A stretch of 64,000 nucleotides of DNA, from assembly GCA_032768795.1 (NCBI GenBank), contig CP136491.1, forward strand, positions 2,418,001-2,482,000, read 5' to 3'. The notes beneath the pieces are model-generated. The model ran no database searches and had not been told where the DNA came from. It worked only from the letters and a program-made list of their open reading frames with translations. A program made the position numbers and the translations under genes. The stretch comes from Tremella fuciformis. Lineage: Eukaryota > Basidiomycota > Tremellomycetes > Tremellales > Tremellaceae. This document shows, piece by piece, positions 12,418 through 63,723 of the stretch (positions are counted from its first letter, which is position 1; every line of letters starts with the position of its first letter).

Positions 12418-14221
12418 CTAGTTGCCCTCGACCTCGTCCATTGCCGTGATGAGCCGGCTGATCGCCTGGAACATCAAGCCAGCCCGTTGTGTCTCTGCAG
12501 TGCCTCCTTCCTTGGCAGTGCCCTCGGCGGCGGCCGCCGCGTGTTGCCGCATAATCTCCTGCGCCTTCTTCTCGAACGCATTGAAGACCTCTCGGATGGC
12601 CGCGCGCCACGAGTCCCACACGACACCGACAATGTGTTGCTCGATCGCCTCGGACAGACCGGTCCCTGCGAGGCGTGCACCATGGAGGGTGATCTGCGCC
12701 GAGTTGCCAGAAGCCGAGTTGATCGGCGGGAAAGGATACGTGAGGAGCGTGGTGGATCGCGAGAGCAGGGCGAGTTGAGGCAGGGTTTGGTGGGGAGTGT
12801 TGCAGTGGGGGCAGTGCGTGAGCGAGTGGAACAGTCGGAGCGAGCGGGAGAGTGGGGCGAAGACCGAGAGGGTGAGGGGCGTGCTCGATCCTGCCTTGGG
12901 CTCGAGCGGTAATTGCGATAGCAGAGACAGGACGTGAGGGACCAGCTGCTGATGTTGGCATGCCGGGTAAGAGGCAAGACCGGGTATGTTCAGTGCGTCG
13001 CTCGAGACGTGCTCGCCCGTCTGCCCGCCGTCATCTCCGATATGTGACAAGTCAAGCAGTGCCAGATGAGGATCTGGGTTTTGCTGGTCATCCCCTTGTC
13101 CGTCGCCCTCTTGGTGCTCGCCAGTGTGGTCCACATGCGACACGCCGACGCCCGACTCGTTGAGCGAAAAGATGGCATCTCGCAGTGCCGATGTGGTGTG
13201 CTGGTCCATGTCGCCCGTGGTGGGAAAATCGTCCGCGTTGAAATGCGGTTCAGGCGGCGGTGGCGGTGCGATGTACGGCAGGTTTCGGACGTAGGTCTGC
13301 AAGGGCAGGTCGGCCAGGTAGCCGTCCACGGCGATCGACTCGAGCATCTGCTCGTCGGTCATGCCGATCATATCCTCTTGTTCCTCGTCCGAATTCAGAC
13401 CCATGTCGAGGGCAATGTTCATGGCCATCTTGTCCACTTCTGCATAGCTCCAGGGCTCTTTGCCAAGTTTGCGTTTCTTCATGAAAGACGGTGGAGGGGG
13501 GAGAGACGAGTGATGCAGGCGGGACACGTGGAGTTGCTTCTGCTCTTTCGGTACGGTCCGCCGTCTCTGACGGGGGGCGTAGATGCAGTGCCAGCCGCCT
13601 GCGGCGCATCGCGAGCACGTCGGTCTGTCGCCCGAACATCGCTGCTTGGCTGCATGGCATAGGTCGCAGGCTGTCTGGTCAGCTCTGTGTCATGGTCGCT
13701 TGCTCATGCGAGACGCGGAGAGGTCGACGAGATCAGAGACGTCCACGAGCGTATGGTGTGGTGCGTCTGTATAATTCCCCAAGGAACGGTAAGACTGGTG
13801 CCAACATGTGGTTCATCACATAGTGTAAGGAGATAGGATGGTGGTGGAATGAATGCAAACGAGGGGCCGAGGGCTCACCTTTACGGATGCTCGGTGGTCG
13901 ACCGTACGCTCCTCTTGGCGACAGGTCATCCCCTGCTCCCATGGCCAAGCTGAGATCCAGCTCTTCCGCGCCGTGCACGTCATCGTCGTCCCCTACGGTG
14001 GGTATATCCAATCCGTGAACGTCGACGTCGACGCCGACATCGACCACGCCATGTTGACCATTGTCCAACTTGTGATGATCTGAAAAGTCTGGTTGTTGCA
14101 AGTTGTGATGAAAATGGGGTTGATCGTGATGACCCAAGCCCAGCTGATGCGCTGCAGCTCCTACGGCTGAAGCGAGAGCGTCGTTGTCTGCCTGCTGTTG
14201 AGAGTCTAGTTGGTTGTCCAT
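12418..14221 (-). CDS. Zn2Cys6 transcription factor
   Basis: Two exons (14221-13879 and 13670-12418) give 531 aa. The 208-nt intron splits the protein just before the zinc cluster, which reads ACDLCHAAKQRCSGDRPTCS and continues RCAAGGWHCIY: six cysteines in the C-x2-C-x6-C-x5/6-C-x2-C-x6/7-C pattern. A basic linker (RQRRRTVPKEQKQ) follows for DNA contact. The N-terminal exon is Gln/His/Asp-rich and contains Val-Asp repeats (VDVGVDVDV), a likely acidic activation or regulatory region. The rest has an acidic segment and a C-terminal helical part, without the classic fungal-TF middle homology region that I can recognise. Target genes unknown. It shares a 260-bp divergent promoter with the cargo lectin. 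Confidence 0.85.
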
Positions 14222-18422: not shown

Positions 18423-19747
18423 ATGGCAGCAGTGGCCACGAAGATGGCGCGCATGCCGCCCATCATGTACGGCACAGCATGGAAGAAGGCGCGCACCACC
18501 GAGCTCGTCGTGCAGGCCGTCAAGGCCGGCTTCAGGGGCATAGACACGGCGTGTCAACCCAAGGTCTGTCTGTCTCGAGACGGCCTCGGATCGGATCAGA
18601 CCTGACCTGACGCACAGCATTATCGGTATGCCGGCCCTCGGGCGGACGCCCATTCTGCAGGGGGGAAGGCTGACATACTAGGGAGGATCTGGTCGGGGCG
18701 GCACTGAGGACGCTCTTCGCAGAGGGGGTGGTCGCGCGAGAAGACATGTTTATTCAGACCAAGTGCGCCCCCCTTCCCCCTTCCCCCACCACCACCACCA
18801 CCACCATCACCACCCCTTCCCCCCAGCACCGGCTAATACCACACAGGTTCACCTCGATAGACGGACAAGACACCGCCCAGCCGCTGCCGTACGACCCCTC
18901 CGCGCCGGTGGACGAGCAGGTGCGCCAGTCGTTCGCGCGGTCGCTGCAGAACCTCGGCGTGGGGTACATTGACGCGGTCGTGCTCCACTCTCCGCTGCGC
19001 ACGCGAGAGGTGCGTGCCCCACCCCCCCCCCCCCCCCCTGGTCCTCACTCGCCCCGCCCCAGTGCGGCGCTGACGCACAGGCAACGCTGCTTGCCTACCG
19101 CACGCTGGAGGGCCTTGTCCACGAGGGCAAAGTCCACATGCTGGGCGTGTCCAACTGCTACGACCCCGAGCTGCTGCGCTGGCTGATCGGCGAGGCGCGC
19201 GTCAAGCTGGGCGTCGTGCAGAACCGGTGGGCCCACCTGCTTCCTTACCTGCCTTCTGGCTCGCCCCGACGGGGCTGACGCGCAGGTGGTACGAGGGGAA
19301 CAACTGGGATTGGGCCAGTCAGTCGCCCCTTTGCGCGGGCCTGCGGGGCTGATGGGCAGTCTACGATATCTGCAAGGCCAACGACATTGCCTATCAGTGC
19401 GCCGCGCGCCTCTTGTCGTCGCCCGGCTGACCACAGGTCGTTCTGGACGCTCAGCGGCTCCCCGACGCTGCTCTCGCACCGCCGCCTCCTCAAGGCCGCC
19501 AAGAAATACGTCATGACCCCCGAACAGACCGTGTACAAGCTCGCCCAGCTGTGAGCTGCGTCCTCGTCTCGCCGCGCCTCGGAGCGGGCCGCGGGTGGCA
19601 TGGCTTACGCCCAGATGGGGCATCACGCCGCTGTGCGGATCCACGAGTCTCCAGCACATGCGGGACGCCCTGCGCGTCGAGCAGATCTCCGAATTGACAG
19701 AGGACAAGCCGAAAGCCCGCGAGCTATGGACCATGATGCGCAGATGA
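18423..19747 (+). CDS. Aldo-keto reductase
   Basis: Nine exons: 18423-18563, 18618-18625, 18682-18762, 18847-19009, 19081-19226, 19286-19317, 19360-19396, 19437-19550 and 19615-19747 (284 aa). Family signatures are MYGTAWKKAR, GFRGIDTACQPKHYREDLVG (catalytic Asp, then Tyr), DMFIQTKFTS (catalytic Lys), VVLHSPL (His), LGVSNCY, and the cofactor-binding GITPLCGSTS. It is a cytosolic NAD(P)H-dependent carbonyl reductase of the short type related to bacterial and fungal 2,5-diketogluconate-type reductases; substrate unknown. Exon 2 is only 8 nt (CATTATCG) but supplies the His-Tyr-Arg of the active site, so it must be included. Introns contain a (CAC)n run near 18785 and a run of about 17 C near 19022. 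Confidence 0.88.
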
Positions 19748-20079: not shown

Positions 20080-21024
20080 ATGCTCTCTGAGCCTTACGCC
20101 GTCAACCCATGGGACGTGGACTGGGAGGGCTTTGTCGATTTCTTAAGGCTGCACAGTGCTGATCCCGACCGAGAATTCCAGAGGAATCGCCTCATGCTCC
20201 TGCAAGATATTGACGACGTGTCGAGAGCCAGCTGCGAGGCAGTGCAAAGGATCATGCCTGACAAGATGACAGGGAATGGGTTGAAAGAGAGCAGGAGTGT
20301 CCTGGCCGAGTGGCGAGTTCACAGGTCAGCGGGCACCACTCGCGCTGACGGCCCAGCGGCACTCATTGCCGCTCCAAGCAGTCGCGGCAGCGACGAGCCA
20401 TGCGACATACGCTCCATCATCGACCGGCTCGACTGTCTCGCCCTGCGCTCGGCGCAGTTTATGGACACGTCGTTCAAGCTCGCCGCTCACCCGCCCCGGA
20501 CAGATCACTTGACGCGAGTCATATTCGTCGCCCTGCCCGATCCGGGGGACGCCGACTCGTGGGTGCGTCTCACCGGCGACGATGCGAGGCGCGAGAAGCG
20601 CTGCTCGTACTACGACAGCGGCGCGGCGCGGCTCGCCAGCACGCTCATGTGCGCCTCTAGGCCGGACCTCCGGTATCCGGGGCAAGACGCCGAGAACATG
20701 TGGACGGCCATACAGGCTGTCGCGACGGCGCCGGGCGGCGGGGGCTCGCTCCGCCACGCGAGCGTACTGAGATACTCGTGCAGCGGCGCGACCCATCTTC
20801 TCAGCAGTTCGGACAGTCTGGATCGAGCGGTGCTCGAGACCAATTGGAGGCATCTGCTCATCAGTGCCAAGAAGTTTGTCCATACATTCACCGAGATGCT
20901 GCAGGTCGAGCTGGGCTCTGCGCGGGGGTGGGACCCGCTTAATGGCTATGATGGGGAGGATGACTATGGTGCCGAGCAAGTCGCGCTTCCTGACTCATGG
21001 CGGGCGATGAGTGTGGATCGGTGA
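20080..21024 (+). CDS. Tandem family member 1, unknown
   Basis: Exons 20080-20324 and 20379-21024 (296 aa). It opens with EPYAVNPWDVDWEGFVDFL, the family start pattern (aromatic/Val, then Pro, then a helix). The middle has FMDTSFKL and DSWVRLTGDD, the equivalents of the more typical F..xW and SWRRR motifs of the other copies. The C-terminal helix (LLISAKKFVHTFTEMLQVEL) is shared too. The 54-nt intron (GTCAGC donor) lies at about the same alignment position as in members 4, 5 and 7. No signal peptide, transmembrane segment or known catalytic motif is visible; the sequence looks like a soluble, mostly helical protein. I do not recognise the family. Confidence 0.7.
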   Translation: MLSEPYAVNPWDVDWEGFVDFLRLHSADPDREFQRNRLMLLQDIDDVSRASCEAVQRIMPDKMTGNGLKESRSVLAEWRVHRSAGTTRADGPAALIAAPSSRGSDEPCDIRSIIDRLDCLALRSAQFMDTSFKLAAHPPRTDHLTRVIFVALPDPGDADSWVRLTGDDARREKRCSYYDSGAARLASTLMCASRPDLRYPGQDAENMWTAIQAVATAPGGGGSLRHASVLRYSCSGATHLLSSSDSLDRAVLETNWRHLLISAKKFVHTFTEMLQVELGSARGWDPLNGYDGEDDYGAEQVALPDSWRAMSVDR

Positions 21025-21344
21025 GGGCTCACTTCCATACATGTGCCTCTCTTTGGGGGGAATATGCGACCCCTCTGACCCGCGATGCCGTGACCTTTAC
21101 AACTGTCTGTGTGGCGCGGTGTCGTCCCCGCAAGACCGAAGGATCCGGTAGGGAAAGGAAGAGAACGAGGGCCTTCTCCAAGCGGGTTTGGCAGAGTGTC
21201 AAGTCTGACCTTTTCTCTCCAAAGGGATGGGGAAGGCTCAAGGATGAAAGGACAGGGGAGAGGGGAGAGTGAAGATGTCTCGAGCGTCGGCCGCCCCAAC
21301 TTGCTCCTCAAGACATAAGCTGCCTGTCCGAACTCTCCCCAGTC
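21025..21344. other. Intergenic region within the tandem array
   Basis: Spacer between family members 1 and 2, probably terminator and promoter. No coding pattern seen. Confidence 0.55.
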
Positions 21345-22313
21345 ATGCAGAGGACGGCGCCCGTCCTTGTCACCCCGCAGTCTGTCGACTTTGTGAGGGC
21401 CAAGGAGCTGTGGGCCACTACCGCACGCGACCAAGACAAGTCATATAGGGGCGATGTTTCCCGGCTCAAGCGCATGATCGAAGAGGCAGAAGCGAGCGAC
21501 GAGGCGCTGCTGCTTCGCACGGGCTGGTCGGGTGCCACGCCAGACCGGGCAACGACGCGACGGCACCTGATGGCGCAGCGGTGGGCCCTGATGCGCATCG
21601 CGCACGGAGATACGGGGCTCTTCATGAGTGCGCCCAACTTCGACCACGGTGTGCGACTCTCCACCCCGCGGGACTTTCCCGTCGACACGCTGCACGCGTG
21701 GCGCACGACAGATCTCGACGTCTGCTCGGCCGTCGCGCAGCACTTTCACGAATACTGGGTGCCGACGGGGACGGACGGTGGCTCACAGGCCGCGTCAGCC
21801 GCGGGCATGTTCAGGGTGGTCACGCCAGGAGGGGAGGATGAGGGCGTGAGCTGGCGGCGTCGCTGCGTCGGCGCCGACCTCTCATTCAAGGACAGCATCT
21901 GCTCCCACGTCTTCCAGGGCGGTATCGACCGGCTGATCGGCTGGGCGGCATCGTTCTCCCTGGACGCGCAGGCCGTCGTCGACTACGAGGAGGGCTGCGC
22001 GCTCATCGACGCCCTCGGCCACTCGCTGCAGGAGGGTCTTATCCGGTATCCCCCCAATCCCCCGCTTCAAACGCTTTGGTTCCACCGGCTCGACTCTCTC
22101 GCGGCCAGCTGCACCCGCCTCGAGAGCGCGCGGGCGTTGTCGTATCGGATGCAGGTGGACCACCTGGTGGCGACGATGACCTATGTGGATGCGTTTGCGG
22201 CGGACGCGCTGGCGGGACCGATGGCGGCCGAGTCGATGGGGCTCTTCAGTGCGCAGGGCGGCACGCGCGCCGAGACCGAGCTGCCGGGCGAGGACCCGTG
22301 GCTGTGTCTGTGA
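21345..22313 (+). CDS. Tandem family member 2, unknown
   Basis: Single exon of 322 aa, no intron needed. It starts with APVLVTPQSVDFVRAKELW, which aligns closely with the starts of members 3 and 4. The central motif is HFHEYWVPT, followed after about 30 residues by VSWRRRCVG. The C-terminal half is helical with LIGWAASFSLDAQAVVDYEEG and a final helix near YRMQVDHLVATMTYVDAF. Soluble, cytosolic or nuclear by appearance. Codon use and GC content resemble the surrounding conserved genes, which argues against recent transfer from a distant donor. Function unknown. Confidence 0.8.
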   Translation: MQRTAPVLVTPQSVDFVRAKELWATTARDQDKSYRGDVSRLKRMIEEAEASDEALLLRTGWSGATPDRATTRRHLMAQRWALMRIAHGDTGLFMSAPNFDHGVRLSTPRDFPVDTLHAWRTTDLDVCSAVAQHFHEYWVPTGTDGGSQAASAAGMFRVVTPGGEDEGVSWRRRCVGADLSFKDSICSHVFQGGIDRLIGWAASFSLDAQAVVDYEEGCALIDALGHSLQEGLIRYPPNPPLQTLWFHRLDSLAASCTRLESARALSYRMQVDHLVATMTYVDAFAADALAGPMAAESMGLFSAQGGTRAETELPGEDPWLCL

Positions 22314-22696
22314 CGCCCAGCGCGCAGCGCCCAATTGGATAAACCTCTGCACTGTACAGTACGCACGCACGCACTTGCACTTGGTATGTTCATGCTTCAT
22401 TGCGCCATATGCATATGTAGCTCGGCCTCTGTCTTCTCGGGCACCCCTTTACGAACATGCAGCGCGATTGCAGCTGTTTGGCGGAACCCTCGAGCCCAGG
22501 CTCCTTTGCGCGATGCTCCCTTCTTCCCACAAACTCGCCAACGAGGAGCAGAGGTGGGGCGTGGCAGACAGTGTGGGAGGTGGAAGACCGCCTCTCGAAG
22601 AGCGGCCGGTGTGCTGGTCGTCTGAACATACTATACACTGTACAAGGCTGCACCTGACCTGCAGCAAACAATCCCCGAGCTCCCTTTCGATACGAT
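22314..22696. other. Intergenic region within the tandem array
   Basis: Spacer between members 2 and 3. It contains a short CGCA-type run near 22361 and an AT-rich CATACTATACACTG about 70 bp before the next start, which may be a TATA-like element. No gene seen. Confidence 0.5.
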
Positions 22697-23680
22697 ATGA
22701 GCATGCCTGCGCCAGTCGTCGTCACACCCCGCTCGGTCACTTTTGCTGCCGCCACCCGCATGCTCTCCGCCTTGAGCGACGACAGCACGCGGCATGGGCA
22801 GGACGCCCAGGCCCTGCTGCGCCGACTGGAGACTGTACAGCAATCGGACAGGACGCTGCTCCTCAGCACGGGGTATACCGGCGAGTATCCCAGCCGAGAA
22901 CAGATGAGGACGTATTTCCTGGAGCAGCGTTTCTCAAAGACGAGGGCTGCCGATCGCATGGACCGCGTGCACTTCAGCGTCGCCCATGTGGCCAAAGTCG
23001 ACGGCGTCACAGTGACAAAGCACGATAGGCAGCTGCACGAGCAGCTGAGCAAGTGGCTGGACGAGGATGATGCGGCGGCGCGCTCGGCGGTCGCGCAGTA
23101 CGCCAATACCTCGTGGGAGGCGGCGCTCGGTCCAGACTACGTGTGCCCCACGGCCGACGCGATCCTGGACACGGTCGCCTTTGGCGAGGCGCGCACGGGT
23201 CTCACGTGGCGTCTGCGCGCCGAGTCGGAGGTCGCGCCTGCCAAGGCTGCCGCGTCGCTGTTCCACCAAGGCAGCATTGCCGAGCTGGTGGGCCTGATTC
23301 TGGGGGAACCACAGAGCGCGCGCGCGTGGATCGATATGGAAGAGAAGGTCAAAGCGATGTTTACCGTCGCCGATAGCAAGTACCGTGGAGAGCTGACCTA
23401 CCCAGCTGCGGATGAAGAAGCAGCGTTGTGGAAGGCCGGGCTCACCTCCATTGAGCATCACACTAGGCCGTTACGGGCGGCAAAAGGGCAGGACTACGAG
23501 CACCAGAAGGAGCTCTATAACAAGGCCGTCGGCGCAGTCAAGTTCTTCGCTCAGACTGCTTTGGTGCAGACGTTGCGTGGCATGAGCAGCGGACGTCCTG
23601 AGGTGCAGGACCGGACTCGCGAGTCCTTGGTGGGCAAAGTCGACAAGACCGGGTGGATCGTCTCCGTCGTCTCGCCGTAG
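22697..23680 (+). CDS. Tandem family member 3, unknown
   Basis: Single exon, 327 aa. The start PAPVVVTPRSVTFAAATRM is nearly the same pattern as member 2. The core has YANTSWEAALG and then LTWRLRAE, the local version of the W-R-x-R motif. The following block LFHQGSIAELVGLILGEP aligns with SLHQAG in member 6 and LFHGSGAFLLATRLF in member 7. The C-terminal helix contains LYNKAVGAVKFFAQTALVQTL. No signal peptide or membrane helix. Function unknown. Confidence 0.8.
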   Translation: MSMPAPVVVTPRSVTFAAATRMLSALSDDSTRHGQDAQALLRRLETVQQSDRTLLLSTGYTGEYPSREQMRTYFLEQRFSKTRAADRMDRVHFSVAHVAKVDGVTVTKHDRQLHEQLSKWLDEDDAAARSAVAQYANTSWEAALGPDYVCPTADAILDTVAFGEARTGLTWRLRAESEVAPAKAAASLFHQGSIAELVGLILGEPQSARAWIDMEEKVKAMFTVADSKYRGELTYPAADEEAALWKAGLTSIEHHTRPLRAAKGQDYEHQKELYNKAVGAVKFFAQTALVQTLRGMSSGRPEVQDRTRESLVGKVDKTGWIVSVVSP

Positions 23681-23894
23681 CTTGGGACGTTGACAATGTG
23701 CCTATACATCTGACCGTTTGCCCATATCAAGTTGTTTCTCCTTGTATGCACTGTAAGATTTGAATTATCACGCCGTTCGCAAGCCTCGCTCCTTTGAGAG
23801 TGCGAGACAGATTTGCATGTTACAGTAGTCTTCTTCAGACTTGACACGCATACTCTCATATCACTTCTATTGCTGGTTGTCGGCTTCTGAAGAT

Positions 23895-24918
23895 ATGGAT
23901 CGCGCCGAGACAAAACGACACGCCGTCCCTCTCCTTGTCACTCCCCTTTACATAGAATTCGAGGCTGCCAAGACCCGCTTGAATGACCACGTCTCTGATG
24001 GCGAGGAAGCGTATCGGCTCTTGGCCGCAAGCATACTGGAGGCGACCTCCCGTGCGGAGGCCGGAAGGGATAGGGGCTCGGGCGAAGCACTGGGACTTCA
24101 GGTGGACAGGCTGGAATGGGGTGACCTACTGATGATAACCTTCAGCGCAAGACATCATCTGGCTAGGGCGGTGGGGCGTAGGGAAGAGTGCTTTTTCCTC
24201 GAGAGATGGCACCGAGCCCGGACAGGTCCAGGAGACGCCAGAACAAACAAGCCGCCACGAGACCTTCAACGCATGGATCGACGCCGAGTTGGAGCTCCGA
24301 TCCGAGGTCGCACGTCCTCAGAATACATACTGGGCGCCCGTCACACCTAGACCCCTCGTCCCGACCCCGCTCAACTTCAGTGTGCTTACCCCTGCACACT
24401 CGGCCAGCGTCGAGTGGATCAGGCGCGGAGAGCCGGACACGCCAACCATTGATGACAACATCAAGTCGCTGGCTTGTCAGAGCCGCCTTGACTTCCTGGT
24501 AGGCTGGGCGCTGCTGGATGACATCTATGAACCGGAAGTATCGGTGGTGAGGGAAGAGTTTCTGAAGGCGGTGCAAAGGGTTTTGGAGGCGTATGCGTCT
24601 GGACACATGCGACGTCCCGCTGATCCCGAAGAAGCCGACGACTGGACACTGCACTTCGACAGGCTAGCTTCCACTTTCAATGAGCTCAGCAGGTTGAGGT
24701 CAGACACTTACAGCTCGCAGCACAGGGCGCCCACCCGGAGCATTGCGAACGAAGCCCGCTACCTGGCTCGGATGGTCCTGCGGAGACCGCGCGCAATCGA
24801 GGACTTATGGTACGACGAGGCTACCAACAGATATGTCTGGATCAGAGCGGAACAGTCTTCAGTTGATTCATTGCCCGAAATATCAGATCGGCGTGCTGTC
24901 AATGACAATTTCCAGTGA
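23895..24918 (+). CDS. Tandem family member 4, unknown
   Basis: Two exons (23895-24170 and 24226-24918) give 322 aa, the same length as member 2. Read without splicing the gene looks frameshifted, but a 55-nt intron (GTGGGG donor, GGACAG end) restores the frame and the family pattern. The start HAVPLLVTPLYIEFEAAKTR matches members 2 and 3. The centre has QNTYWAPVTP and then SVEWIRRGEPD, the Trp-x-Arg-Arg motif. The end (NEARYLARMVLRRP) is shorter than in members 5 and 7. The weak donor means the splice should be tested with RNA. Function unknown. Confidence 0.65.
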
Positions 24919-25536
24919 GCACTCCCATGCTTTTGAGTGGTCCGTCCTCGGGGATGAACGTCCCGCGCGCCATGGAGCATCCGCGGGCTGAGTTGTCAGG
25001 GAGCGTGATCCGTGCGCGACCAACGGCACGTGTCCGAAGGACTCTGGTCTGATGCAATCAAGGCGCACTTGACTTGCACGAGCGGACGATTTGAGACTCG
25101 TTGGCATGCATGAGCTTTCGCAGCTTGCTTTTGGCTTCTCGTAGCGTTGGTCCTGGTCGACGTGGGGGCTTAGAGTCATTTGACGCTTCGGATTGACTGG
25201 GGTTCTGTGGCTATTTGCAATGCCCAGTTGGTCTGCGCGTTGCAATGATCCTTGTCTTTTCCCACTGCCGCAGGTACTGTATGCAAGAGCCTACCATACT
25301 CGTTCACCCCTCTCTGACGTCGCTTGAGGCCCTATCGCAAATCTCTTCCTGCGATGTTGGCTTCTGAAAACAGTGCTCCGTTCACTTGGCGCTCCACTAG
25401 ACCGAGCTCGAAAGGAGACCGTATTTGTTGGGATGCTTCAGCCGCCTTGAATGTACGATACAAGAATCAGGGAGACAGAATTGAGAATCCCCAAGACACT
25501 CGATTTCCCGCACAACCTTGCCTCTACTCTTCTAAC
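24919..25536. other. Intergenic region within the tandem array
   Basis: At 618 bp this is the longest spacer in the array. Short open frames on the minus strand do not show family similarity. No relic of another copy could be recognised by eye. Confidence 0.5.
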
Positions 25537-26642
25537 ATGTCGTGGACGAACCCCTACGCCGTTAGCACCAGTGACGTCAACCTCGTTGAAGCGAAGGAAT
25601 TTCTCGATCACTATAGCCCAAGTTCCCTTCCCTTTGCCAGCGAGGCAGACTTCCGCATAATTCGAGAGGCGATACAGAAAGCTGACACCCTCTGCGATGA
25701 AGTAAACGCATTACTTCCTGAAGGGAAGTACCGCCTAGCGGATAATCCGGTCCACGTCTTACAGCGGGCCAACAACGAAGTTTTGGCGAAGTCTTCCGGT
25801 GAGTAGATCGGTTTGATACTCGGATGCAGGGGTTGATGATAGACGTTGGTGACCAAAAAAGTCGTGACGTGATAAAAGACAAGGTCAACGAGCTTCATGG
25901 AGTGATCCATACAGCCAGACTGGCGCACGCCGAGTTTATCGATTGCAATTTCAAGCGAACGAGCGAGGTGATGGCCTACGAGGACGAGGGCGAGGACCAG
26001 TCGTTCGTCTTGGTGAAGCCACCTGTTTTGGATGACGACCTCGAATTCACTGCAATGACCGACAACGACAAGCCCTGGAGCCAGAGGCGCAAGGCCTTTT
26101 ACACGATCAAAGCCGCCCACCTGGCGAGTCGCACAATGACGACCTGGTCGGTGGCGCATGACCTCGGGCCCGAAGGACGGTACGAGGAGGACCAACTTGT
26201 CACCGTTCGCGACGTCGTCAAGAATCGAGACACTATCAAGGCCACCCTATCTGCTCTCGATCCCAAGATGGGTAACGAGGGTCTGCAGAGCCTTGAGACC
26301 CTTGTACAGGCGCTTGCTAACTTTGAGAGTACATTGCAACCAGCCTTCGACGAGCGGAAGCGAAAACTGACATGGGTGGCGGTGGTCGATGCTGCAGAGG
26401 AGTACGTGCTGACCTTCGCAAACCTGATGAATGTCCCCATTAAATCCAAAGCAGGCTCTGCACAAGCGCCGATGGACTCTAACGCAGATACCGAGATGTC
26501 TCTTGATTCTGCGTCCCCAGCTGCAGAAGCCTCGGAGTCTGATGCTAAGGTGATGGATTTGTCTAGGGTCTGTCTTCCTCTATCAGCAATGGCGCAGACG
26601 ACTTCGCCGTCCACCACCCCTTCCTCTAACTCCTCGCATTGA
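25537..26642 (+). CDS. Tandem family member 5, unknown
   Basis: Exons 25537-25798 and 25843-26642 (353 aa), with a strong GTGAGT donor in phase 1. The start NPYAVSTSDVNLVEAKEFL carries the family pattern. The centre has AEFIDCNFKRT and PWSQRRKAF. The helix VAVVDAAEEYVLTFANLM aligns with the last helix of the other members. An extra Ser/Pro/Asp-rich tail of about 60 residues follows, absent from members 2-4. Function unknown. Confidence 0.75.
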
Positions 26643-26998
26643 TCACTTGCTTAGATGCCATCCTCTGTTTAGTGTTTAGAGATTGTTATACGAACTGTAT
26701 GCATACATGCTTCCTTGGACTGGGCGTTGGGAATTCAAATGCAAGTTTTCCCAGTCCAACGTCGCATTCTGGCATTCGACATGAATCCCTCCCTTGGTGC
26801 ATTCAATGTCACATCGCCCCCAGCCACCCCTTTCAGAGTCAACTCCACATACCTCGCCGCCTTCTGCCGTATCGTGCTACTTCAAAGTTCCAGACGAGTC
26901 CAGCCTATTTGAAAGGAGGAGCGAGAGGAAAGGCTTGACTCATGGTCGATATTCCACTTCTCCACGACACTTGACTTTGCCCAATTCCTCGCCTTGTC
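26643..26998. other. Intergenic region within the tandem array
   Basis: Spacer between members 5 and 6. No coding pattern recognised. Confidence 0.5.
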
Positions 26999-28021
26999 AT
27001 GACAGAGACGACCTCGTACATCATCGCTCCGCAAGCACTTAGCCTTGAGAGGGTATCTCCGCTCTTGCGAAAGGACGCGACACACGAAGATGAGCTATGC
27101 CGGAAAAGCGCTACCGACATGCGGGCACTTCTGCAGGACTTTCGGACCACGACTACCACCCTCCTGGGGAGGTTTGATCGACGTAGTGAGGGCCCTGACA
27201 AGGACCGCCTTTTCATCACTCGCACCTTCTCTCAGACCTTGCAAGAGATAGAGGTCCTGGAGAGTAGAGACTTCAGGACACAGGCTGAAGAGAAGGCACT
27301 CAGTCGGGACAATGACGACCGGCTGGAGCTGGAAGCCTGGCACTCGCAGGACGATGCACTCCGCTCCAAGCTTGCAAGTCACTTTGACACATTCTGGGAA
27401 CCGATCTTTCATCCTTCATACGAGCTTCCTGACGACGCGCTCTGGTTCTTCGTCGCGACGCCAGGCGACGTCGTGGAAGGGATCACATGGCGCCGTCGCT
27501 TGCCCCCATCATCCGAGCGCCAATCGAGTGAACTGGCTCTTCGACGTTCACTGCATCAAGCGGGTTCCGATCATATGGTCGCTGTTTCGAATGGGAGCTC
27601 GGAGTGCAACGATGTTGGGATCAACGGACTCCATTGACCAAGCCGCGTAGCACACCTGAGGAGTCTGCAGACACTCAGAGGGAGCTGGCCGGGAATCGAA
27701 GTTTGCGCGCCCATTCTGACTGAACAGGCAAAGGCTTCTCATGACGGGCTTGAACCCATCGTGCAACATTATGACAGCTACCTCAAATACCAGCCGACGA
27801 CTTCCCTCATGAGTGACGAGGTTCGATGGAATTCTACCAAGTATAATCGTCTCACTAGGGAAGCCATCGAAGATTTCGTCCAGAAACACGTCGAACCCCG
27901 ACTGTTGCCCGTTGTGCGCGGCACATCGACATCCGCCTCCTATCGCTGCAGGAAGCCAATCAAGCTGCGGCCTGACCATTCAACGCACTGCATACAGAAC
28001 CAGGAGGACCTCTACGAGTAG
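26999..28021 (+). pseudogene. Tandem family member 6, interrupted by an in-frame stop
   Basis: One continuous frame from 26999 to 28021 carries family sequence on both sides of a single TGA at 27635-27637. Before it: TSYIIAPQALSLERVSPLL, HFDTFWEPIF, GITWRRRLPP and SLHQAG. After it: KASHDGLEPIVQHYDSYL and a C-terminal helix LTREAIEDFVQKHVEPRLL that aligns with the other members. No frameshift is needed, and the distance between the flanking blocks equals that in members 3 and 7, so the stop replaces a sense codon. A 57-nt intron from 27615 to 27671 would remove it, but its GTTGGG donor is poor and it would delete family-aligned sequence. A recent nonsense mutation is the simplest reading; stop readthrough or a sequencing error are alternatives. 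Confidence 0.6.
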
Positions 28022-28508
28022 GGTCTTCGTCCAGAGTTGGTTCTGCTCGAGTTGCAGACTCTAGAGTTATGTCTTGTTCATCCTGTAAACCTACATTTCG
28101 CTCGCCTGTCAATGCGATTTCTCGACTGCTTCGACTCCATGTCAAAAAAGGTAAAGTTTTTGCATTTACAGTTCTCCTGTGCGTTGCGCAAGAAAGAGTG
28201 TCTTGATTCCCTGGCTTAAATGGTCTGCACGTCACGTACAGTACTATACGTGTCAGATCCACAGTTGTTCGTCCACACGCCTTCATGCCCGTCTGCAGCT
28301 TCGTATCTCCACTCAAGACGTCTGAACTTGCCGCTCCGTTGTGGAGCACGGAGCGGGCCGCCGGGAAGAAGGCCCGCCATCAAGCGCGTCCCATACTATA
28401 TATCGGCGCACGCTCCATGTGAGGCTCCCCCGTACCGTGACCCCGAGCCGCCGGCAGCCGACCTGAGACACCGCCTGCTCACTTCTCTCTCCAATACCTG
28501 CAACCCGA
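28022..28508. other. Intergenic region within the tandem array
   Basis: Spacer between members 6 and 7; it contains the TATA-like element listed separately and no gene. Confidence 0.55.
28397..28403 (+). promoter_or_regulatory. TATA-box-like element of family member 7
   Basis: The sequence TATATAT lies about 106 bp upstream of the start codon of member 7 in otherwise GC-rich DNA. Position and composition fit a TATA box, which in yeasts is often linked to regulated rather than constant expression. Confidence 0.4.
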
Positions 28509-29700
28509 ATGTCGTTATCCAAATCCTACTCCATCAACCCCTTCGCGTGCAGCTGGAAAGAGCTCGACACTGCTCTGGCGAGCATATCTACATGGGGAAA
28601 TACGGACGAGAAGGCGTCTGCGGACATCCAGTCGCAGCGACGCCGTGAGATGCAGATCCTGGTCAACGCCAGGCTGGGAGAGCCGGACGAACGCACGAAG
28701 ACCGTGGACTCGGTGGAACAGAGAAGAACCCTCGCCAGACTGCGATCCGCCCTTCGATCACTCTCACAGGAGAACGGTCCGTACTGCACCCTCAGCCCAG
28801 CCTCACCATGTGCTGACTGCAGACCCGATCGAAGCTGCAGCCACGCAGGCGGACTTCAATGCCCTGAACGACCTCATTCGTGAGTACGACTCGGTCAAGG
28901 ACATCTCTGTGAGGTGCATTGACACGTTCTTTCTGCGTGGCAAGGAGACATCGCCTAGTGTGCCGTTTCATTGGCCCGTCGACCTCGTACCTCTCGAAAA
29001 CATGGAGGTGCCGCCTTTCTGGCGCCGGCGCTCCCCTGACGACGAGGCTACGATTGCGAAGCGCTCCCTGTTCCACGGAAGCGGAGCATTCTTGCTGGCG
29101 ACGAGGCTCTTCGCCGTACCTCGACCGGACGCGATGCACAGCGGTCAGCAGGACGAGAATCGCTGGTCGGCCATCAAGACTGTGGTGGCGGACTGGCTCA
29201 ACGGCAGACTCACTCTGCCCGCGCTGTCAAGCCCGGAAGGTATAAAGTGCCACGAGGGGCTGACGGTCCTCACCTCCGCGCATGATGCTCTGAAGGAAGC
29301 GTCTAGGCATGCGGCCAGCCTCAAAGACCGAGAGCAAGAATACCTTGCATGCCTTCGGGCGGCGATGACTTACGTTACGTTGTTCACGGACTACCTCAAG
29401 GTCCCACTCGACGTGCCGACGCAGTACTACAGCCACCCAGTCAAAGTGACTGCTAGATTCAGCTATCAGGACAACTCCGAGGCGCTGCTAGATCTCTACA
29501 AATTTGGTGCGGTGATTGAAAGTCCGACTGAGGTCGACCCGGAGCTCGCAACCAGGCGCTCGGCAGCTCCTGACGAGACGGGACGACCCAAGAAGGACAC
29601 CGTTGAGTGGGAATCGTACTCGACTGACCGTCTCGCACCGGACACGTGTCACATACGGATTCCCGCCCAGCTTCCCATATCAATGCAGCAGCGAGACTGA
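28509..29700 (+). CDS. Tandem family member 7, unknown
   Basis: Exons 28509-28776 and 28823-29700 (381 aa), phase-1 intron with a GTCCGT donor and a GCTGACTGCAG end. The start YSINPFACSWKELDTALAS follows the family pattern. Central motifs are CIDTFFLRGKE and PPFWRRRSPDD. Next come SLFHGSGAFLLATRLF and the C-terminal helix CLRAAMTYVTLFTDYLKVPL. A tail of about 90 residues, unlike that of member 5, ends the protein. Function unknown; soluble by appearance. Confidence 0.78.
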
Positions 29701-33190: not shown

Positions 33191-36100
33191 ATGGCCACGC
33201 GACTGGGCAGCTGTGATCGCTCTCGAGCTTGGATCAAGGTCGAGGTCCACCCTCTGTTCCCAGCGCGCCTAGACGGACCCTCGTCATCGCAGCAACTTTC
33301 AGAGGTAGCCCTGGCCAGTCCAGCACTGTGGGCGAGCTTGACGAGACGGCGCAAGCCAGGCAGCTCTCGAGAAGAGACCCACGACCACCATGATATCAGC
33401 GTAGCGGTGCGCTGGCCCTTGGAACGACGTCTGGGCAAAGGCAAGCAGAAAGAACGGAATCTAGTTATTCACCTCGAGGAGGACAAGGTTAGTCGGCGTC
33501 GACCTCTGATCATGCTGATCTTTTTCAGCGCTTCAGCTCGTCTCCACGGAGTACGATGCAACTGTATGTTCCCGTACACCTCTATCCTGCGTTTTCAACT
33601 CCGCCGTTGATCAGTGCGATCACTCGGCATGAGCCCATTCCGCTATCGTTGGCGGTTCTCCAGCCCGTCCTCAATCGGCAGGAGGCATCACTGCATGGCC
33701 ATGACGACAAGGAGACATACGATATCGATCCTCTCTTCGAAGCAGGCAAGCCTCGCGCTCCCAGTCTGGCCAATGGGCTTCCGAATGGGCATTCAGACTT
33801 TCGTCCTCGTCCTCGGATACTCAGACAAGGCGACACCGTCACACTTCACTCCAATCAGCAGGACAGATCGTCCCGACTGTTCCGCATTCTCCTGCTGGAG
33901 CCCGTGGACCAAGGTATCCTGTCGCCTCGTACAAAAGTCGTCATTTCCACAAGACCGCACATCGCGACCGAGACTGAACCAGATTGGCTGGATGGCGATG
34001 CCGTCAGCGAGAGCAGTCGTGGTCGAACAAGGCTCTCACTGGCGAATTTCGATGCCGACGCATTCCTCACGACTGATCTATCATTCCACTCTGCGGACGC
34101 GGATGAGTTGCCCGAAGGGCCCATGCTCGGAGACAGTCTCGACTTGGCTCAATCAGCATATTCGTCCACGTCCGGCTCCATCACCCCAAAGCCAGGTGGA
34201 CGGGCCGTCGAAAGTCCATCGCCTCCTGTGCTCGTCGACGACCTGATGCCTGGGCCGATTGACGGTAGGGCGCGATTCACGGCCATTCGCGCTCTGGGTC
34301 CTTCAAGATCTGCCTTGAGAACCGAGGCCGACAGTGTCTGTTGGGTTGGTGTCGCAAGCCTCGGCCGAGCTGGCATTTTCGACGGTGATTGGGTGAGTGT
34401 TGAGCTTGTTTGCGCAGCACGGAATAATATTTTAGGTTCTGCTGCGGTCTTCTGCCGGAACGAGCGAAAGACTTGTCAAAGCCGTCGCATGGGAGCGGTT
34501 GGACGAGACGGCAGACGACATGCGCGTTGTGTCAAGATCCCCACGCCCTATCGCTGATCTGACAGACCTATCAACGCGATCCTCCTTCCACCACTCCTGT
34601 ACCGCGCACTTCTGCCGAAAAACGTCTCAAACACCGATATAGTCGTTTCACCAACATCATTCGGAGCACGGTTGCCCACTCTGCCGGTGGCCAAAACGAT
34701 GACTCTCGCTCGTATCGCTACTGCGGAGGGCATCGACAAGCGGTACGAGCGCTCCTGGTTGCGCAGCCTCAAGGAATACGTTTCACCGCATAGAGCTTCC
34801 GACACTTCCGCCACTGCAGTGAGCATGCGCTTGGTCCGAAGGGGAGACATCCTGGCCGTGCCAGTTGAGCAGAGTCGGCCCTTGAGAGATGGAAACGGAG
34901 ACCCTCCTACAGACAGCGACAGTGACGAGGACAGTAGCGGTCGGAGTCGGGTGGAGGACGGCGAGGACGGCGGGATGCCCTCGATTCAAGGCAAGCAGAA
35001 ATTGCACCCAGCCGTCGCATATTTCATCATAACATCGTTATCATATGAGCCTATCACCTCACTAGAAGATGACTTTTCGTCCTCGACATCTTCCAAGGCT
35101 CGAGCGGGCGAATTGGGATGTTGGGTCGACACTTGGGAAGAAGGTTCTACCAAGATGGTTTTGACCGGGGTGGAGAGGGCGCATATTGCGGCTCGAGAAG
35201 CCGATAACAACTGGCTCGGACATGGTCAGCACTCATATACCGATGATAGCCCACTAACGTTGTCAGAGCATCCGCCACCTCCTTATAGCGTTCGAGCATC
35301 GAGCAAGCTGAGGGACATGCTGCGGACAGCCCTAATTGCCGCACATCAGGTGTCCCATCTGCCTCTGTCCGTCCTCGTCAAGGGCACGCGAGGCGCGGGT
35401 AAGATGAGCATGATACGCGCCGTGGCGGCTGAGGTGGGCTACAGCCTGATCGATGTGAGTCGGCACATGCATCTGCCAGCAGCAACTGATGACAGGTCGA
35501 CGGCTATGAGCTAGCAGGCGAAACGACTGCTGCCATGCAGGGCATTCTGCAAGCCCGAGCGGACAAGGCTAAGGCGAGCGCCCCCTCCATGCTGGTCATA
35601 AAGCACATTGAGGCATTGGGGAAAAAATCGGACCTCTCGGCTTCTGGTCGACCCCCTGCCGCACTGCAAATACTTGAGGATACGCTAGAATACCTGCGGC
35701 AGGGCGTGCGAGACACGGCGCTTCCTTGCCTTCTCATTGGGCTCACATCTGATGCGGAAGCTGTTCCCCCCGAGCTCTTGTCTTGCTTCAAGCAGCATGT
35801 CGGCCTCGATGCTCCAGATGAGGCGGAAAGACTGGCGATCATTGGCGGCTTATTGTCGTCGCTCTCAATGGCGTCGGACGTCGATTCCCAACGGCTCGCT
35901 TCGCAGACTGCGGCTTTCCATCCTGGCGACTTGAAGGCTCTCCTGCATCGTAGTCACGATCTAGCTCTCGCTCGCGCGCTGCAGGAATCTAAGCGTCCTT
36001 TCATGGACCTGAACGCAGCTGGCGTCTCTCTGACCAAGGCAGATGTCGACGCCGCACTTAGCGATGCGCGCACAGCCTATTCAGCGAGAATCGACGCGCC

Positions 36101-37446: not shown

Positions 37447-40400
37447 ATGATCGGGTCGCAACATATCCTTCATCGGATCATACCCCTGATCTGCCAGGCC
37501 TTGCTGACATCACCTCAAAAGGCGGTATGGCTGCACGGTCTAGGCCTTCTTGCCTCGCCCAAGCTTCGCGGCGCTATGTATCAGACATCCTCCATCTGGC
37601 TCCCCATCCTGCTCAGAGGCCTCGAAGTCAACCGAGAGAAAGAGGTCATCTTCGCCGCCCTTCAGCTACTGACCGAAGTGGGCGGAACGATGGAAGTCAT
37701 AAAGACGTGTCTGATCAAACCGCTCAAGCTCCTGGCCAAGGACAGGCGAATCATGTACAGCCCCGAGCTGGAGGGCGCTGCCAGCAAATTGAGCCTCGTC
37801 CTGCCCCTTCCTAACGGCAAGAAGCTCGGACGGGCGCGGAGTGTGCGTCCTCTTCTCCGACAACCCCCCTTGGCTTCTCCCACCACGGCGCTGAGGGGGC
37901 GGGCGAGGCTTGCGCTGATAGCATAGGCTCTTGCTACGATTTCCAGGACCCCGACTCCCCGGCCTACTTCTCTACGGGACCACCCCGTCTTGAGCAACAT
38001 TCTTGCGCGCAACCTCCCCGCCAAAGGCCGGTCCGTGCAGCACGCATGGACGACCACGCTCCTAGCGCCCATTCACGAGAAGCCCAAGGTATGGACGGAC
38101 AACCTGTTCCTGGCGACACTCGAGGCGAGCGGGGTACCCGAAATGGTGATCGCTTCTCGCGTAGGCTTCACTCGCGGCGCTTCTGTGCGTGGCAGCTGAC
38201 CACCAGCTCGGCCCATCGGTACATGCGGACCTTTTCCAGACCGCGTTCATGAAGTGTTATCAGCGTATCAAGGAGGCTGACCCAGCGTTCAAGGTAAGAC
38301 CTGTGCCCGCGTTTGTCTGACGGGCCGGGCTGACCAGGCAGGGGCGGGTGGATGCGGCATTGCAAGAGCTGTTGACTGACACCACTGTCTCGGCGGACAT
38401 TGCGCTCATCATCCTCGAGGCCCTCGCCTTTCTGAACAAAGAGCGCCAGGTCCTCCCGCGTGCGGTTCTCGACGCGGCGAAGAATTGCGCGCTAGGCAGG
38501 TGGCAGGGGGATCTGAGTCAGTCGATACCGGCCATCGTCGTGTAAGCTGCGCTGCGCGAGAACGGGAGTCCTGCTCACAACCCAGGTGGTATGCCGAGCA
38601 GGACACCGAGGCCAATCTCACCGCGGATAACCTCGCCAATTTGACGGAAGTCAACATACGCATGGGTTCGGCGTGTGAGGCTACGAACTGGGTGATTTGA
38701 GACCGAGTTCTGATGCCAGGCTACGACTCTGCCTGGTCGTCGCTCCAGTGGCTTCGCGATGACTACCACACGCCGCCGGATCCGCTCTGGATCACCCAGC
38801 TCAGTCATTGGCAGAGCGCGCTGCGCGCTCAGGAGGAGGTGGACAAGAGGATGCAGTCGATGAGCTTCGGATCATTCAATACCAAGATGATCTGTCGTGA
38901 GTCTGCGTGCTGATGTCCGTCGACGTTGGCCTGAGCACAGATCACGCCTTGGGCGATTTTGAGAAGGGATACCGATTGGCCCTCAGCCTCTTTGAGGGCC
39001 TGAACGATCATCAGCGGCGGCAGACCGCCCACTGGGCAACTGCCTCGGCATGGCACATGGTGCGCCCAACATTCTGCGAGCCGCCGAGATTCAGGGAAAT
39101 ACTGACGTGCAGGGCGACTACGAGACGATGGCCGACTATCTGGCGTTCCACCCGAAAGGCACGTCGAAATCCATCTACAAAGCCATCATCGACGTCCAAC
39201 ACGGGCAGTACGCCTCGGCCTTCCAGCACATCCGCAAGGCTCAGGCACTCGCGTACGACGAGCTCCAGTCGCAGCTCGTCCTGGGGCCTCACGTCGCACT
39301 CAAGACGCTGGCAAAGACGGAGCTCCTCGTGGAGCTGAAGGAAGTCATCACCTTCAAGTCGCAGCCCGAGCAGCGCGACTGGATCCTCGACGTCTGGCGG
39401 AACCGGTTCCAGCGCAGTCATCCGGATGCCAATACGTGGCTGAAGCGCCTGGCCGTGTGGAGCCTGGCAACGCCGCCGACGACCATGGAGCTGCAGCTCT
39501 GTTATATCGACTGCGCCAAGCTCTGCGAGAGCAAGGGTATGACCGAAGCCGCGAAGCGGATCATGGAGATGATCACTCCATGGTCTTATGAACCGGTGAG
39601 CCATTGCGTCCTACCGGGCGTGCCAATGGTCCGTACAAGGCTCATTGATCAGGGGGATAATGTCGAATACACCAAGATGCGCTTTCAGTGGAAAGACGCC
39701 ACGCAGTCGGGCAATGTCAAGGGTCAACAGAGGACGCTGCGGCAGATGCATGAGCACACCGCGAGGCTGATCCAGACGCTGCACATCGACAAGGGGGCTC
39801 TCGAGGCCGAGGGTCTCGGGCTGCGGCCAGTCACTACTGCCAGTGGCCTGAGCACCATTGACAAGGAGATCCTCGCCAGGCGGTATTGCCGCCTTGCGGA
39901 GTGGACAGAGACGTGTCAGGGCAACGATTGGGTGGCGGTGAGTCATCTGACCTGATGCCGCGCCCTCTTGCTCATTGATAGGATCCCGACTCTGAGGTCT
40001 ACCGCTACTACTCGCTCTCCTCGAAGCTGGATCCTATGTGGTTCAACGCCTCGTATTCCTTAAGCGAGGCTGCGATGAGTATCTTCGAGGGCAACTCGTG
40101 CAGCCGTTCTGACCCCATCGCTGTGAATTCATACGGTAAGTTGCTTCGAGTCGTTCTCGCGAGCTCGCCTTGACGGGCAGTGGTTCCCGCCATACGAGGC
40201 CTCTTCCAGGCGATCCGGACGCCCGAGTCACCGGAGAAAGGCATCAAAGCCCTGCTCCGCCTCGTCACCCTCTGGCATCGTTTCGGCGAGTCTGACTCGG
40301 TCTTGCTCGAAGTCTCCTCGCAGCTCGCCGCGACGTCCGTCGCCGCATGGATCGACGCGATCCCTCAGCTGATCGCGCGGCTCGGCACGAAACACAAAGA

Positions 40401-43017
40401 ACTCCAGGCCTTGCTCATCGAGCTGCTGAAGAACATCGCCAACCAGTATCCGCACGCGGTCATATGGCCCCTGATGACCGCCAGCCAGACCAAGGCTACC
40501 GACGGCGAGGCGGGCGCCCGAGTAATCATGGACTTTGTGTGCTCCATGCCAAATGGCGCTCGCTTGACGCACCAAGCGGAGCTGGTGGGGATGGAGCTGA
40601 TCCGGTCGAGCAATTCGTGGTTGGAAAAGTGAGTCCCGCTCAAAGTGTTCAGCCGAGACTGACTAAAGGTGGCGCACGATGATCGATCGCGTGCTGCCCC
40701 GCACGGAGCTCATGGAGATCGCTTGGCACGAGGTCCCAAGCGGCTGGGAGACAGAGGTCGCAACGCTTGACGTGAGGTCTCTCCAGCCTCGTCTGCTATG
40801 AAGCTGACCTGAAGTGCCCCGAAACGCCTGACGAAGAGACATTCAAGCAGACATACGGAGTACGGATCCAGAGCATTTACCGCACGCTCGTGAAGTATCG
40901 TGCCACCCGAACGATTTCGTTGGTCCATTCCGCATACAGTGATCTCTACCGCGTACGCATCTTTTGTCGACCGGCAATCAGCTCAGGCGCTGACTGCAGC
41001 TATTTGGGGAGATTGATGCCCAGCTCAACCACTGGAAGATACCCGGTGCAAAATTGCAGCTGAGCAGTGCGGCGCCCAAGCTGCTCTCGCTTCGTGACTG
41101 CATCCTCACCGTACCCGGTCAGTCCGGAGGATTACCACATAGATGGGGTATGCTGACCTACTCAGGTCAATATGACCCCAATCTAAAGTTGGACGATCAA
41201 GCGTTCATTGACGGGTTCCGCCCGACAATGGACATCTTGACGTCCAAAATGATGCCCCGCAAGCTGGTCATTCTCAGTTTCAAGAAGAACTTTACTTTCC
41301 TTCTCAAAGGCGGGTCGCGCTCGGGACGGCGCTTCGTCAAAACTGATTGACAGGCAATGAAGACCTGCGCGGCGACGAGCGCGTCATGCAGCTCTTTACC
41401 CTGGTCAACACCTTGCTCAACCATGAGCAGGAGGCATTCAGCCGAAACTTGCATCTCTTGCCCTACGAGGTGGTCCCCCTTTCGCCAAGTGCCGGCCTGG
41501 TCAGCTGGGTTCCAAACACGACTCAGTCAGGGGCGCTACACCCGCATGCGCTCGACGAGCTGACGAGGCAGATTGCAGGCTCTGATCCAATCGAATCGAG
41601 ACAAAGACCGCAACTCCAACCTGGCAAACAAGGAGCTCGCTTCTCTCCTCGGCGTGAGTGACGTTGCTGCATTTAGGCAAAGCGCTCATGGCAGTACGAC
41701 CCGAGCACGTTCGATCTCAAGCGGGACAATCCTCGACTGGACCCGCCGGCCGAGTCGGAGAGGTACGACAAGCTGCCGTTGGAGACGAAAGTCAAACGGC
41801 TCCAAGCGGCCCTCTCGCACTCCAACCAGAGTGAGCCGTTCTGCTCGCTTCTTCAGCGTCGGAGCTCACGGCCAGGCGACCTCAAGGACGTGCTGTGGCA
41901 GAGAAGCCCCTCAGCTGAGATCTGGATCAGTCGACGTACCAACTTTGCGCGAACCATTGGTGTTGGCAGTGCGTTGCCTCTCTGACGCTCGAACTTAGAT
42001 TGCTCACCCCAGGCTTTGTGGGCTACATCATCGGCCTGGGTGACCGACACGGCCTGAACATTCTTGTTGACCAGCTGACCTGGGGCGCACTGCACATCGA
42101 CTTTGGCGATGTCAGCTACAGCCACTTGGGCGCGATGAGGTTGAGCTGACTAGAAGTTGTTTGGCGTTGCGCAGGAAAGAAGCTTCCTGCCCGAGAAGGT
42201 GCCGTTCAGGCTCACAAGAATGATGACGAACGCCTTCGAGGTGAGTTGCGGTCTGCGCTGGGAGCCGCGTATCTCGCTGAGCCTAGCTCGCTTCGTCGTA
42301 CCCTAAAAGCCGCGCTCCGGGCTCGCGAGGGTCCTTCAAACAAGCCAGCATCGTCACGATGCAGGTGATGCGCGAAAGTAGGAGCACCCTGCTGGCAATG
42401 CTCGAGGCGTTCCTGTACGACCCGCTCCTCTCGTGGACAGGCCACACCGGCCCTTCCATTGCGTATGGCCCGAATGGTGAGCCCGCGCTCCTCCTGCCCA
42501 CGCAGCACATGGCTGACCACAGGGGGCGCCAGCAGTGTGACTCTGCCCGAAAGCGACAGCGACAGCGACGGCAAGGGTAGCGGCCTGATGAAGCCCTACG
42601 GAAGGGTCATGAACCAGTCGGTCGCTCCTGTCGGGCGGCAGCAGAGCGAGGCGGACCCGTTCAGGCGTATCGAGAACTCGTTGATTGCTGCATACCTGGA
42701 GAGCGACAGTTACATGGCCAAAGCCGGTGAGGGCGGCATGACCAATACCAAAGCTCTGAGTGTGGGTGCTGTCGTGTCTCGCTCACAGGGAGTGCTGACA
42801 CCTAGGTCCTAGCTGAGATCGAGCGCAAGCTGGCGGGCCATGACAGCGTCACAGGAGAGGTCATTCATGTCAAGCAGCAGGTACAGCAGCTCATCGAGGA
42901 AGCGACGGATCTGCGGAACCTCTCCCAAGGTGAGTGGTCGGGCTTTATATTTCATCTTGTAGGCGACGGGCTGATGACGCCTCAGGCTACGTCTTGGGGT
43001 GGATCCCGCACTGGTGA
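37447..43017 (+). CDS. TOR-family kinase, N-terminally short (TOR-like)
   Basis: I traced 25 exons from 37447 to 43017, in frame throughout (1471 aa). Order: a short HEAT-like start (KAVWLHGLGLLASPKLRG); the FAT region (RDHPVLSNILARNLPAKGRS, GDYETMADYLAFHP, WIDAIPQLIARLGTKHKEL); an FRB-like part (EETFKQTYGVRIQSIYRTL); the kinase (PRKLVIL, FLLKGNEDLRGDERVMQLF, catalytic GLGDRHGLN, HIDFGD, LPEKVPFRLTRMMTNAFE); and the C-terminal FATC (EEATDLRNLSQGYVLGWIPHW). TOR kinases of fungi are usually near 2400 aa; here PEX6 ends 327 bp upstream, leaving no room for the main HEAT array. Cryptococcus is known to have a second, TOR-like kinase, and this may be its relative, with full-length TOR elsewhere. 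Exon 15 ends at a GC donor (41310). All core kinase residues are present. Confidence 0.85.
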
Positions 43018-43219
43018 GCATTGTCGAGCGCCTTGCATGGGTCTCGTCTGGCCCGAGTTGCTGTTGTATCGTTACACTCTGTACAGATTGCATGAATGCT
43101 CTGGCTCGGAAGGCTCAGAGAGGTCTCTCCCAAACAACACCTCCACCACCGAGGTCCAACTCAATCATTTCGTTGCCATCACTCTTTCCTCTCATCGCCA
43201 GAGCAGTGACGACCACCTC

Positions 43220-62342: not shown

Positions 62343-62865
62343 CGTCGAGAAGCGGGTGCATCACCGTCCGCCTGCATCTCTCTCTGAGTTATATCGGGAC
62401 ACTCGGTCGCGGATTCGGTTTGCGAAATCATGCTACTGGACACTAGGTATCGGTGTCGCGTGAAACACCACCGCATGACATCATTCAACGCGACTGAATT
62501 TGATGAGATGGGTCTCGCTTATAGCAGGCCGACTCCGTTCGCTTTCCGGACCGGTATCGATATCGGCCCCATCTAATCAATGCCGCTCTGCAACTCCCAG
62601 CAGTACAATTAACTTACCACGTCGCATGAACAAAAGACTCATACAGCTGACGGGGTCCAATTACCCCGACGCACTGACCGTCCATGCGTGTGTCCGTGTG
62701 TGTGTGTGTGTGTTGCCGATCAGTGATGGGCGTTTCAAGGAGTATCGCCGATCAAGGTACCCTCGATCACCTCCGTGTCGCCGAAATCTCGTTCATGCGC
62801 ATGTTCATTGAGCGTTGACATTGTCAGGTCGTCGGAAGGCGTTAAAAAAGTGACAACACTGCCAC
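62343..62865. other. Intergenic region with (TG)n tract
   Basis: It contains the promoter of the glycosyltransferase and a (TG)n microsatellite at about 62690-62712. A T-run on the minus strand near 62844 belongs to the tRNA gene. No coding sequence seen. Confidence 0.6.
62844..62849 (-). terminator. RNA polymerase III terminator of tRNA-Val
   Basis: A run of six T on the minus strand lies 16 nt after the tRNA 3' end, the normal pol III stop signal. Confidence 0.8.
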
Positions 62866-62950
62866 TGATCTCGGGCGGGCTCGAACCGCCGGCCTCCCGC
62901 GTCTTCACCACGTGTGAAGCGGGCGCTATGACCAACTAAGCCACAAGACC
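62866..62950 (-). tRNA. tRNA-Val (anticodon CAC) with 11-nt intron
   Basis: The 85-nt minus-strand sequence folds into a full cloverleaf: a 7-bp acceptor stem (GGTCTTG with CGAGATC, two wobble pairs), a D arm, an anticodon stem CCCGC/GCGGG, and a T arm GGCGG-TTCGAGC-CCGCC. The A box (TGGCTTAGTTGG) and B box (GGTTCGAGCC) are intact. The anticodon region is 18 nt instead of 7, so an intron of 11 nt sits one base after the anticodon CAC, the normal place. CCA is not encoded, as usual for eukaryotes. Confidence 0.93.
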
Positions 62951-63723
62951 ACCGCCTGTGGACGGTGTGCCTGCGACGTGATCACTGGCGGCATGGCTTC
63001 CACCGTCCGTGCACCGTCCGTGCGAAACAATAGCAACAACACGAACCTCGTTTCGCGAACAATACGAACTCGACTTGAACATCGCCCGAAGTGCATACGA
63101 CTTGTTGTCCGCTAGTGATCAGTGCGGGCTCCGTGTCCGAGCGAGACCTTTTGTGCACGTTTCTCACTCAGGTCGGATCGGATGATACAGAGCCATGGCG
63201 ATGGCCTTTCCACGCCCATCACTCAAACGACTCTCTGCCTCGATGCAATATCATAGGTTGCAAACCGGGAATCAAGCAGTAAGGTCATCGACACACGATG
63301 CGCAAGGGCTACACAGTCAATCACGGCCCTACAGGCTACGAGATCGAGAGACGGACATCCAGTAGACGCTGCGACGGTTCACCGAGACATGGACCAACAA
63401 CAGGCCGCAGACTGAGGATAATCTGCGCTCGACGCGAGATGAGCGGAGCGCCGAGCTTGTTGATCAGCCGACCTCGGACCCGTCACAACCGGCACCGTTC
63501 TACCCCGTTCGCCCTCATTCTTAGTCACCTATTGCATCGACGCCGATGGCGTGTTAATCATGTACACCACCCGAGCGGCGTAAAAATTGCCAAAATGGCA
63601 ATTATGCAGTGTCTCTCATCTATTAAGAGGCTATTTTGCAGTCTGAGCACCTGCACTCAATTGCCCTCTTGTTCTCCTGTGCATAACTTGAGTTTCCTAC
63701 ACGCTATGATCCCTTGCATGGCT
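62951..63723. other. Intergenic region
   Basis: A plus-strand frame from 63298 is open for 185 codons but is Arg/His/Ser-rich, lacks introns and overlaps the better minus-strand frame at its end, so it is not called a gene. The local sequence is more AT-rich than elsewhere. Confidence 0.5.

Follow-up and report, generated by a model that had tools for sequence, protein, structure and literature searches.

Sequence comparison indicates that seven genes lying head-to-tail on the + strand at positions 20080-29700 are tandem paralogues of one unrecognised family that diverged long ago. They occupy part of a window of 64,000 nucleotides of the Tremella fuciformis genome (C2:2418001-2482000). The genome comprises 28.1 Mb in 11 contigs; contig C2 measures 3.63 Mb, which places the array away from its ends. 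The seven same-strand genes of the initial annotation were confirmed, and their spacing, given there as about 1.2-1.5 kb, was measured at 1.2-1.64 kb between starts (20080, 21345, 22697, 23895, 25537, 26999 and 28509, referred to hereafter as g1 to g7).

Two of the genes, g2 (21345..22313, 322 aa) and g3 (22697..23680, 327 aa), were read as single exons. The splice models of g1, g4, g5 and g7 are putative ones that we chose from the sequence alone, and alternatives to them exist. The frame of g1 (20080..21024) is open when unspliced, giving 314 aa; of 15 listed choices that preserve the frame, one, an optional 57-nt intron at 20325-20381, would reduce the protein to 295 aa, its possible site being after 82 codons in phase 2. 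The model of g4 (23895..24918; exons 23895-24170 and 24226-24918; 322 aa) has an intron of its own, in a splicing that is one among many possible choices. In g5 (25537..26642; exons 25537-25798 and 25843-26642; 353 aa) and g7 (28509..29700; exons 28509-28776 and 28823-29700; 381 aa, with the longest tail), the model introns follow 87 and 89 codons, respectively, both in phase 1; the g7 splicing is one of several options. The open frame of g6 (26999..27637) encodes 212 aa. Third-position G+C was 0.62-0.83 in the array frames, as compared with 0.61-0.78 in the frames of three neighbouring genes. No 7-mer was common to at least four of the seven upstream stretches, and there is therefore no sign of common regulation.

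Elsewhere in the window, an aldo/keto reductase frame (Pfam PF00248, E 1e-6) lies just upstream of the array at 18674-19183, and a Zn(2)-Cys(6) cluster domain is encoded on the - strand at 12421-13689, probably within a transcription factor gene. Downstream are the fourth domain of PEX6, a peroxisome biogenesis gene (34558-35511), and two frames with FAT and FATC domains (38996-44374), probably belonging to one large PIK-related kinase gene. A tRNA-Val(CAC) on the - strand (62865-62951) may hold an intron, judging from its size of 87 nt.

Membership of a single family was assessed by leave-one-out profile searches against 5,067 decoy frames taken from nearby. All seven copies ranked first with the profile of the other six, at E values of 1.3e-10 (g1), 3.9e-25 (g2), 2e-24 (g3), 1.3e-17 (g4), 0.0015 (g5), 1.1e-14 (g6) and 9.8e-6 (g7), while the best decoy over the seven runs reached E 0.15. 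The weakest member, g5, was found at E 3.6e-10 when the profile was built from g1 and g7 only. The copies run A B B B A B A along the array, two subfamilies being interleaved: subfamily A comprises g1, g5 and g7, and subfamily B comprises g2, g3, g4 and g6. Neighbours are thus not always nearest kin; the closest A pair, g1-g7, is at opposite ends of the array.

Within the seven-protein set, BLAST joined the four B proteins to one another (E 4e-21 to 0.006) and linked g1 to g7 (3e-9) and to g5 (0.008); g5 and g7 were unlinked, and no A-B pair was found at E <= 1. Comparison of the A and B profiles by hhalign gave E 4.9e-5 with a probability of 68% over 251 columns. With the rebuilt spliced models, the A-B profile-profile score was 39.0 (E 1.7e-4, probability 50%), as compared with 24.6 for the highest-scoring of 100 column shuffles and with 13.6 and 10.7 in reversed controls. 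When single proteins were searched with the profile of the other subfamily, only g7 was found significantly in seven tests (E 0.0015, by the B profile); the B profile missed g1 and g5, and the A profile had no significant match to g2, g3, g4 or g6.

The motifs that the initial annotation had taken as common to all copies were retained to different extents. Its N-terminal motif (P or S, then V/I and P, with the spacing given there) is present in all seven, although the second P site is occupied by T in g5. In the alignment, W-[RIV]-[RL]-R is found in strict form in g2, g3, g4, g6 and g7; g1 carries WVRL, and the motif is lacking in g5. An LFHxGS block can be recognised clearly only in g3 and g7; it is loose in g2, g4 and g6, and barely there in g1 and g5. 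In all, 23 columns are kept in at least five members. Among them are three R sites and single D, E and T sites; none is H or C, and the others are structural or hydrophobic residues. The hydropathy of any 19-residue stretch did not exceed 1.36 in any of the seven proteins (Kyte-Doolittle scale), and there is therefore no evident membrane span or signal peptide in any of them. Judged by hydropathy, the array proteins look soluble.

The duplications appear to be old. DNA matches between copies were confined to short two-copy matches of 16-33 nt, by a method that misses matches that are gapped or under 65%. Of 21 pairs, 13 exceeded and eight fell below the expectation from pooled codon usage in their identity at fourfold sites of conserved amino acids (raw counts), for example 20/53 in g2-g3 (16.3 expected) and 12/43 in g1-g7 (13.3 expected). 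The largest excess was in g3-g4 (21/38, as compared with 11.7 expected), a pair that may retain some silent similarity. In most pairs, silent sites have come close to saturation. Because the DNA matches are only short and the fourfold sites are near expectation, no recent birth is visible, and a recent expansion finds no support. The 'fast-evolving expansion' of the initial annotation, understood as recent or ongoing, is thus unsupported.

Of the birth-and-death evolution proposed with it, only the second half found a candidate. The g6 frame breaks off at 212 residues and lacks most of the C-terminal helical half. In 19 fragments lying 3' of its stop and extending to 28030, similarity to the family did not reach significance (best E 0.79). 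An open frame continues past the stop at 27638-28021, also without significant family similarity. As read from these frames, g6 is either truncated or broken, or else it is spliced to a tail that cannot be recognised, and it may represent a gene death in birth-and-death terms. The early stop in g6 and the high divergence would also fit a decaying array of former genes. This is very unlikely, however, since six copies retain frames of 295-381 aa (in four cases only with chosen or optional splicing) with coding-like third-position G+C, and since core residues are shared despite the near-saturated silent sites.

The initial statement that the family has no known domain still stands. No Pfam match above the curated cut-off was obtained with the seven reading frames or with the spliced models of g1, g4, g5 and g7. 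The sub-threshold matches were to DprA_WH for g6 (E 0.055), Cas_Csy2 for g4 (E 0.077) and DUF7032 for g7 (E 0.12). Among PDB sequence profiles, the best E was 0.34 for A1 and 0.47 for A2, which is chance level. Nothing on the array family was found in the literature at the level of titles and the first lines of abstracts.

No eighth copy was found among the 1,038 frames of the window, the best match outside the array having E 0.98, nor in a profile scan of the flanks of +/-100 kb (200 kb, 4,190 frames; best E 0.085). When the 28.1-Mb genome was searched with six protein queries (g1, g2, g3 and the frames of g4, g5 and g7), every match below E 1 was an array member; outside the array there were three hits, with E values of 1.5, 1.88 and 1.95, and profiles at those loci were unsupportive (best E 0.14). 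These genome and flank searches would miss a more distant third subfamily. An origin as a transposon or dispersed repeat was rejected, as no dispersed copies were seen with the six protein queries or in the +/-100 kb profile scan.

Two alignment queries were run against 5.8 billion proteins; among the best-word candidates, 7,996 for one query and 7,997 for the other, none was a relative at E <= 10. As a control, a neighbouring RCC1-like frame matched 142 proteins at E <= 0.001, one of them at 67% identity. The organisms of these matches, in the first 90 of 120 listed (142 in total), are ones that we take to be Tremellomycetes, so that the database holds many members of this class. In a tree of 31 rows the RCC1-like frame was joined to the protein at 67% identity with support 100/100, without a resolved sister. 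The 28-row side that includes the frame was split from three Agaricomycete rows, also at 100/100; the tree carries a long-branch warning. By this single gene, the host probably belongs to the Tremellomycetes, with no close named relative in the tree. Judging from these searches, close orthologues of the array genes are unlikely in the sources covered by the protein database; more diverged relatives would be missed.

The failure to find relatives is nonetheless weak evidence of absence because the paralogues are themselves so diverged: their identity is 13-28%, and a single 5-residue word is common to g2 and g3, with none common to g1 and g7. Orthologues as diverged as these would be missed. 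It is therefore quite possible, if short of probable, that the family is widespread in Tremellomycetes with an ordinary conserved role and evolves too fast for a word-based search, in which case the array is not private to this lineage. The age implied by near-saturated silent sites points in the same direction. The RCC1-like neighbour, with its many Tremellomycete matches, argues against it, since close orthologues of the array might be expected if they were present in that database.

Structure prediction with AlphaFold2 was carried out on g2 with a seven-row alignment. The best of five models had pLDDT 76.3 and pTM 0.79, the others having pLDDT 56.6-61.3. A g3 model from a four-row alignment (pLDDT 41.9) was set aside; both query and alignment differ from those of the g2 run, so that the improvement does not serve as a clean control. 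The g2 model, a fair one, suggests that the protein is all-helical and consists of two halves, which are linked through a short two-strand beta element bearing the conserved W-R-R-R. An internal duplication of the two halves was rejected, as the score of the N half against the C half (10.3) fell short of the top score in 50 shuffles (13.9). With the g2 model, Foldseek gave no match at E <= 0.001 in the PDB (best E 0.25), and none was found at that threshold in a viral fold library (best E 0.23). The C-terminal half of the model aligns with four-helix bundles, at the level of common bundles. It is at this level only that it matches the focal adhesion targeting domain, talin R7R8 and the vinculin head, which are four-helix-bundle adaptors.

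A size of about 320 aa and the helical content of the model would suit several all-helical enzyme folds, and the kept D, E and R sites might contribute to an active site. That the array encodes a much diverged family of such enzymes is nevertheless distinctly improbable: neither Foldseek against the PDB at E <= 0.001 nor Pfam above its cut-off gave a match, no H or C site is kept, and there is just one D and one E site. It is unlikely, if slightly less so, that the proteins form a new fold class of two helical bundles and a beta element with the conserved WRRR, belonging to one deep Tremellomycete lineage, in which the interleaved A and B genes encode hetero-oligomer partners.

We tentatively propose that the array encodes diverged, soluble helical binding or adaptor proteins kept by separate partners, a reading that we put short of probable. 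The proteins would be cytosolic or nuclear and not enzymes. Their conserved core would join the two helical halves, and the diverged helix faces and tails would provide binding surfaces for different partners, perhaps pairing A-type with B-type members; the copies would have been kept because each took on separate partners. We counted in favour of this proposal the family evidence, the coding-like third-position G+C, the long divergence, the helical g2 model, the hydropathy and the lack of kept H or C. Against it we counted the dependence of structural confidence on the best of five g2 models, the failed g3 model, the weak A-B cross-profiles and the fact that the structural matches are to common bundles. 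A tandem, diverged set of genes without a known domain, soluble by hydropathy and with one possibly broken copy, is also what might be expected of genes for self/non-self recognition or conflict, their diversity kept by selection. We consider this a poor prospect, as there are no recent duplicates and no Pfam match above cut-off.

The array provides a defined, testable case of the persistence of an orphan tandem family, in which silent sites are near saturation and the core is still recognisable. It adds a family absent from Pfam, together with a workable fold hypothesis and a profile applicable to sister genomes. Lineage-restricted tandem arrays of uncharacterised paralogues are a general kind in fungal genomes. 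The present array differs from them in that no recent copies and, by the genome protein queries and flank scan, no second locus were found. It resembles them in that the genes are again head-to-tail, on the same strand, diverged and without a known domain.
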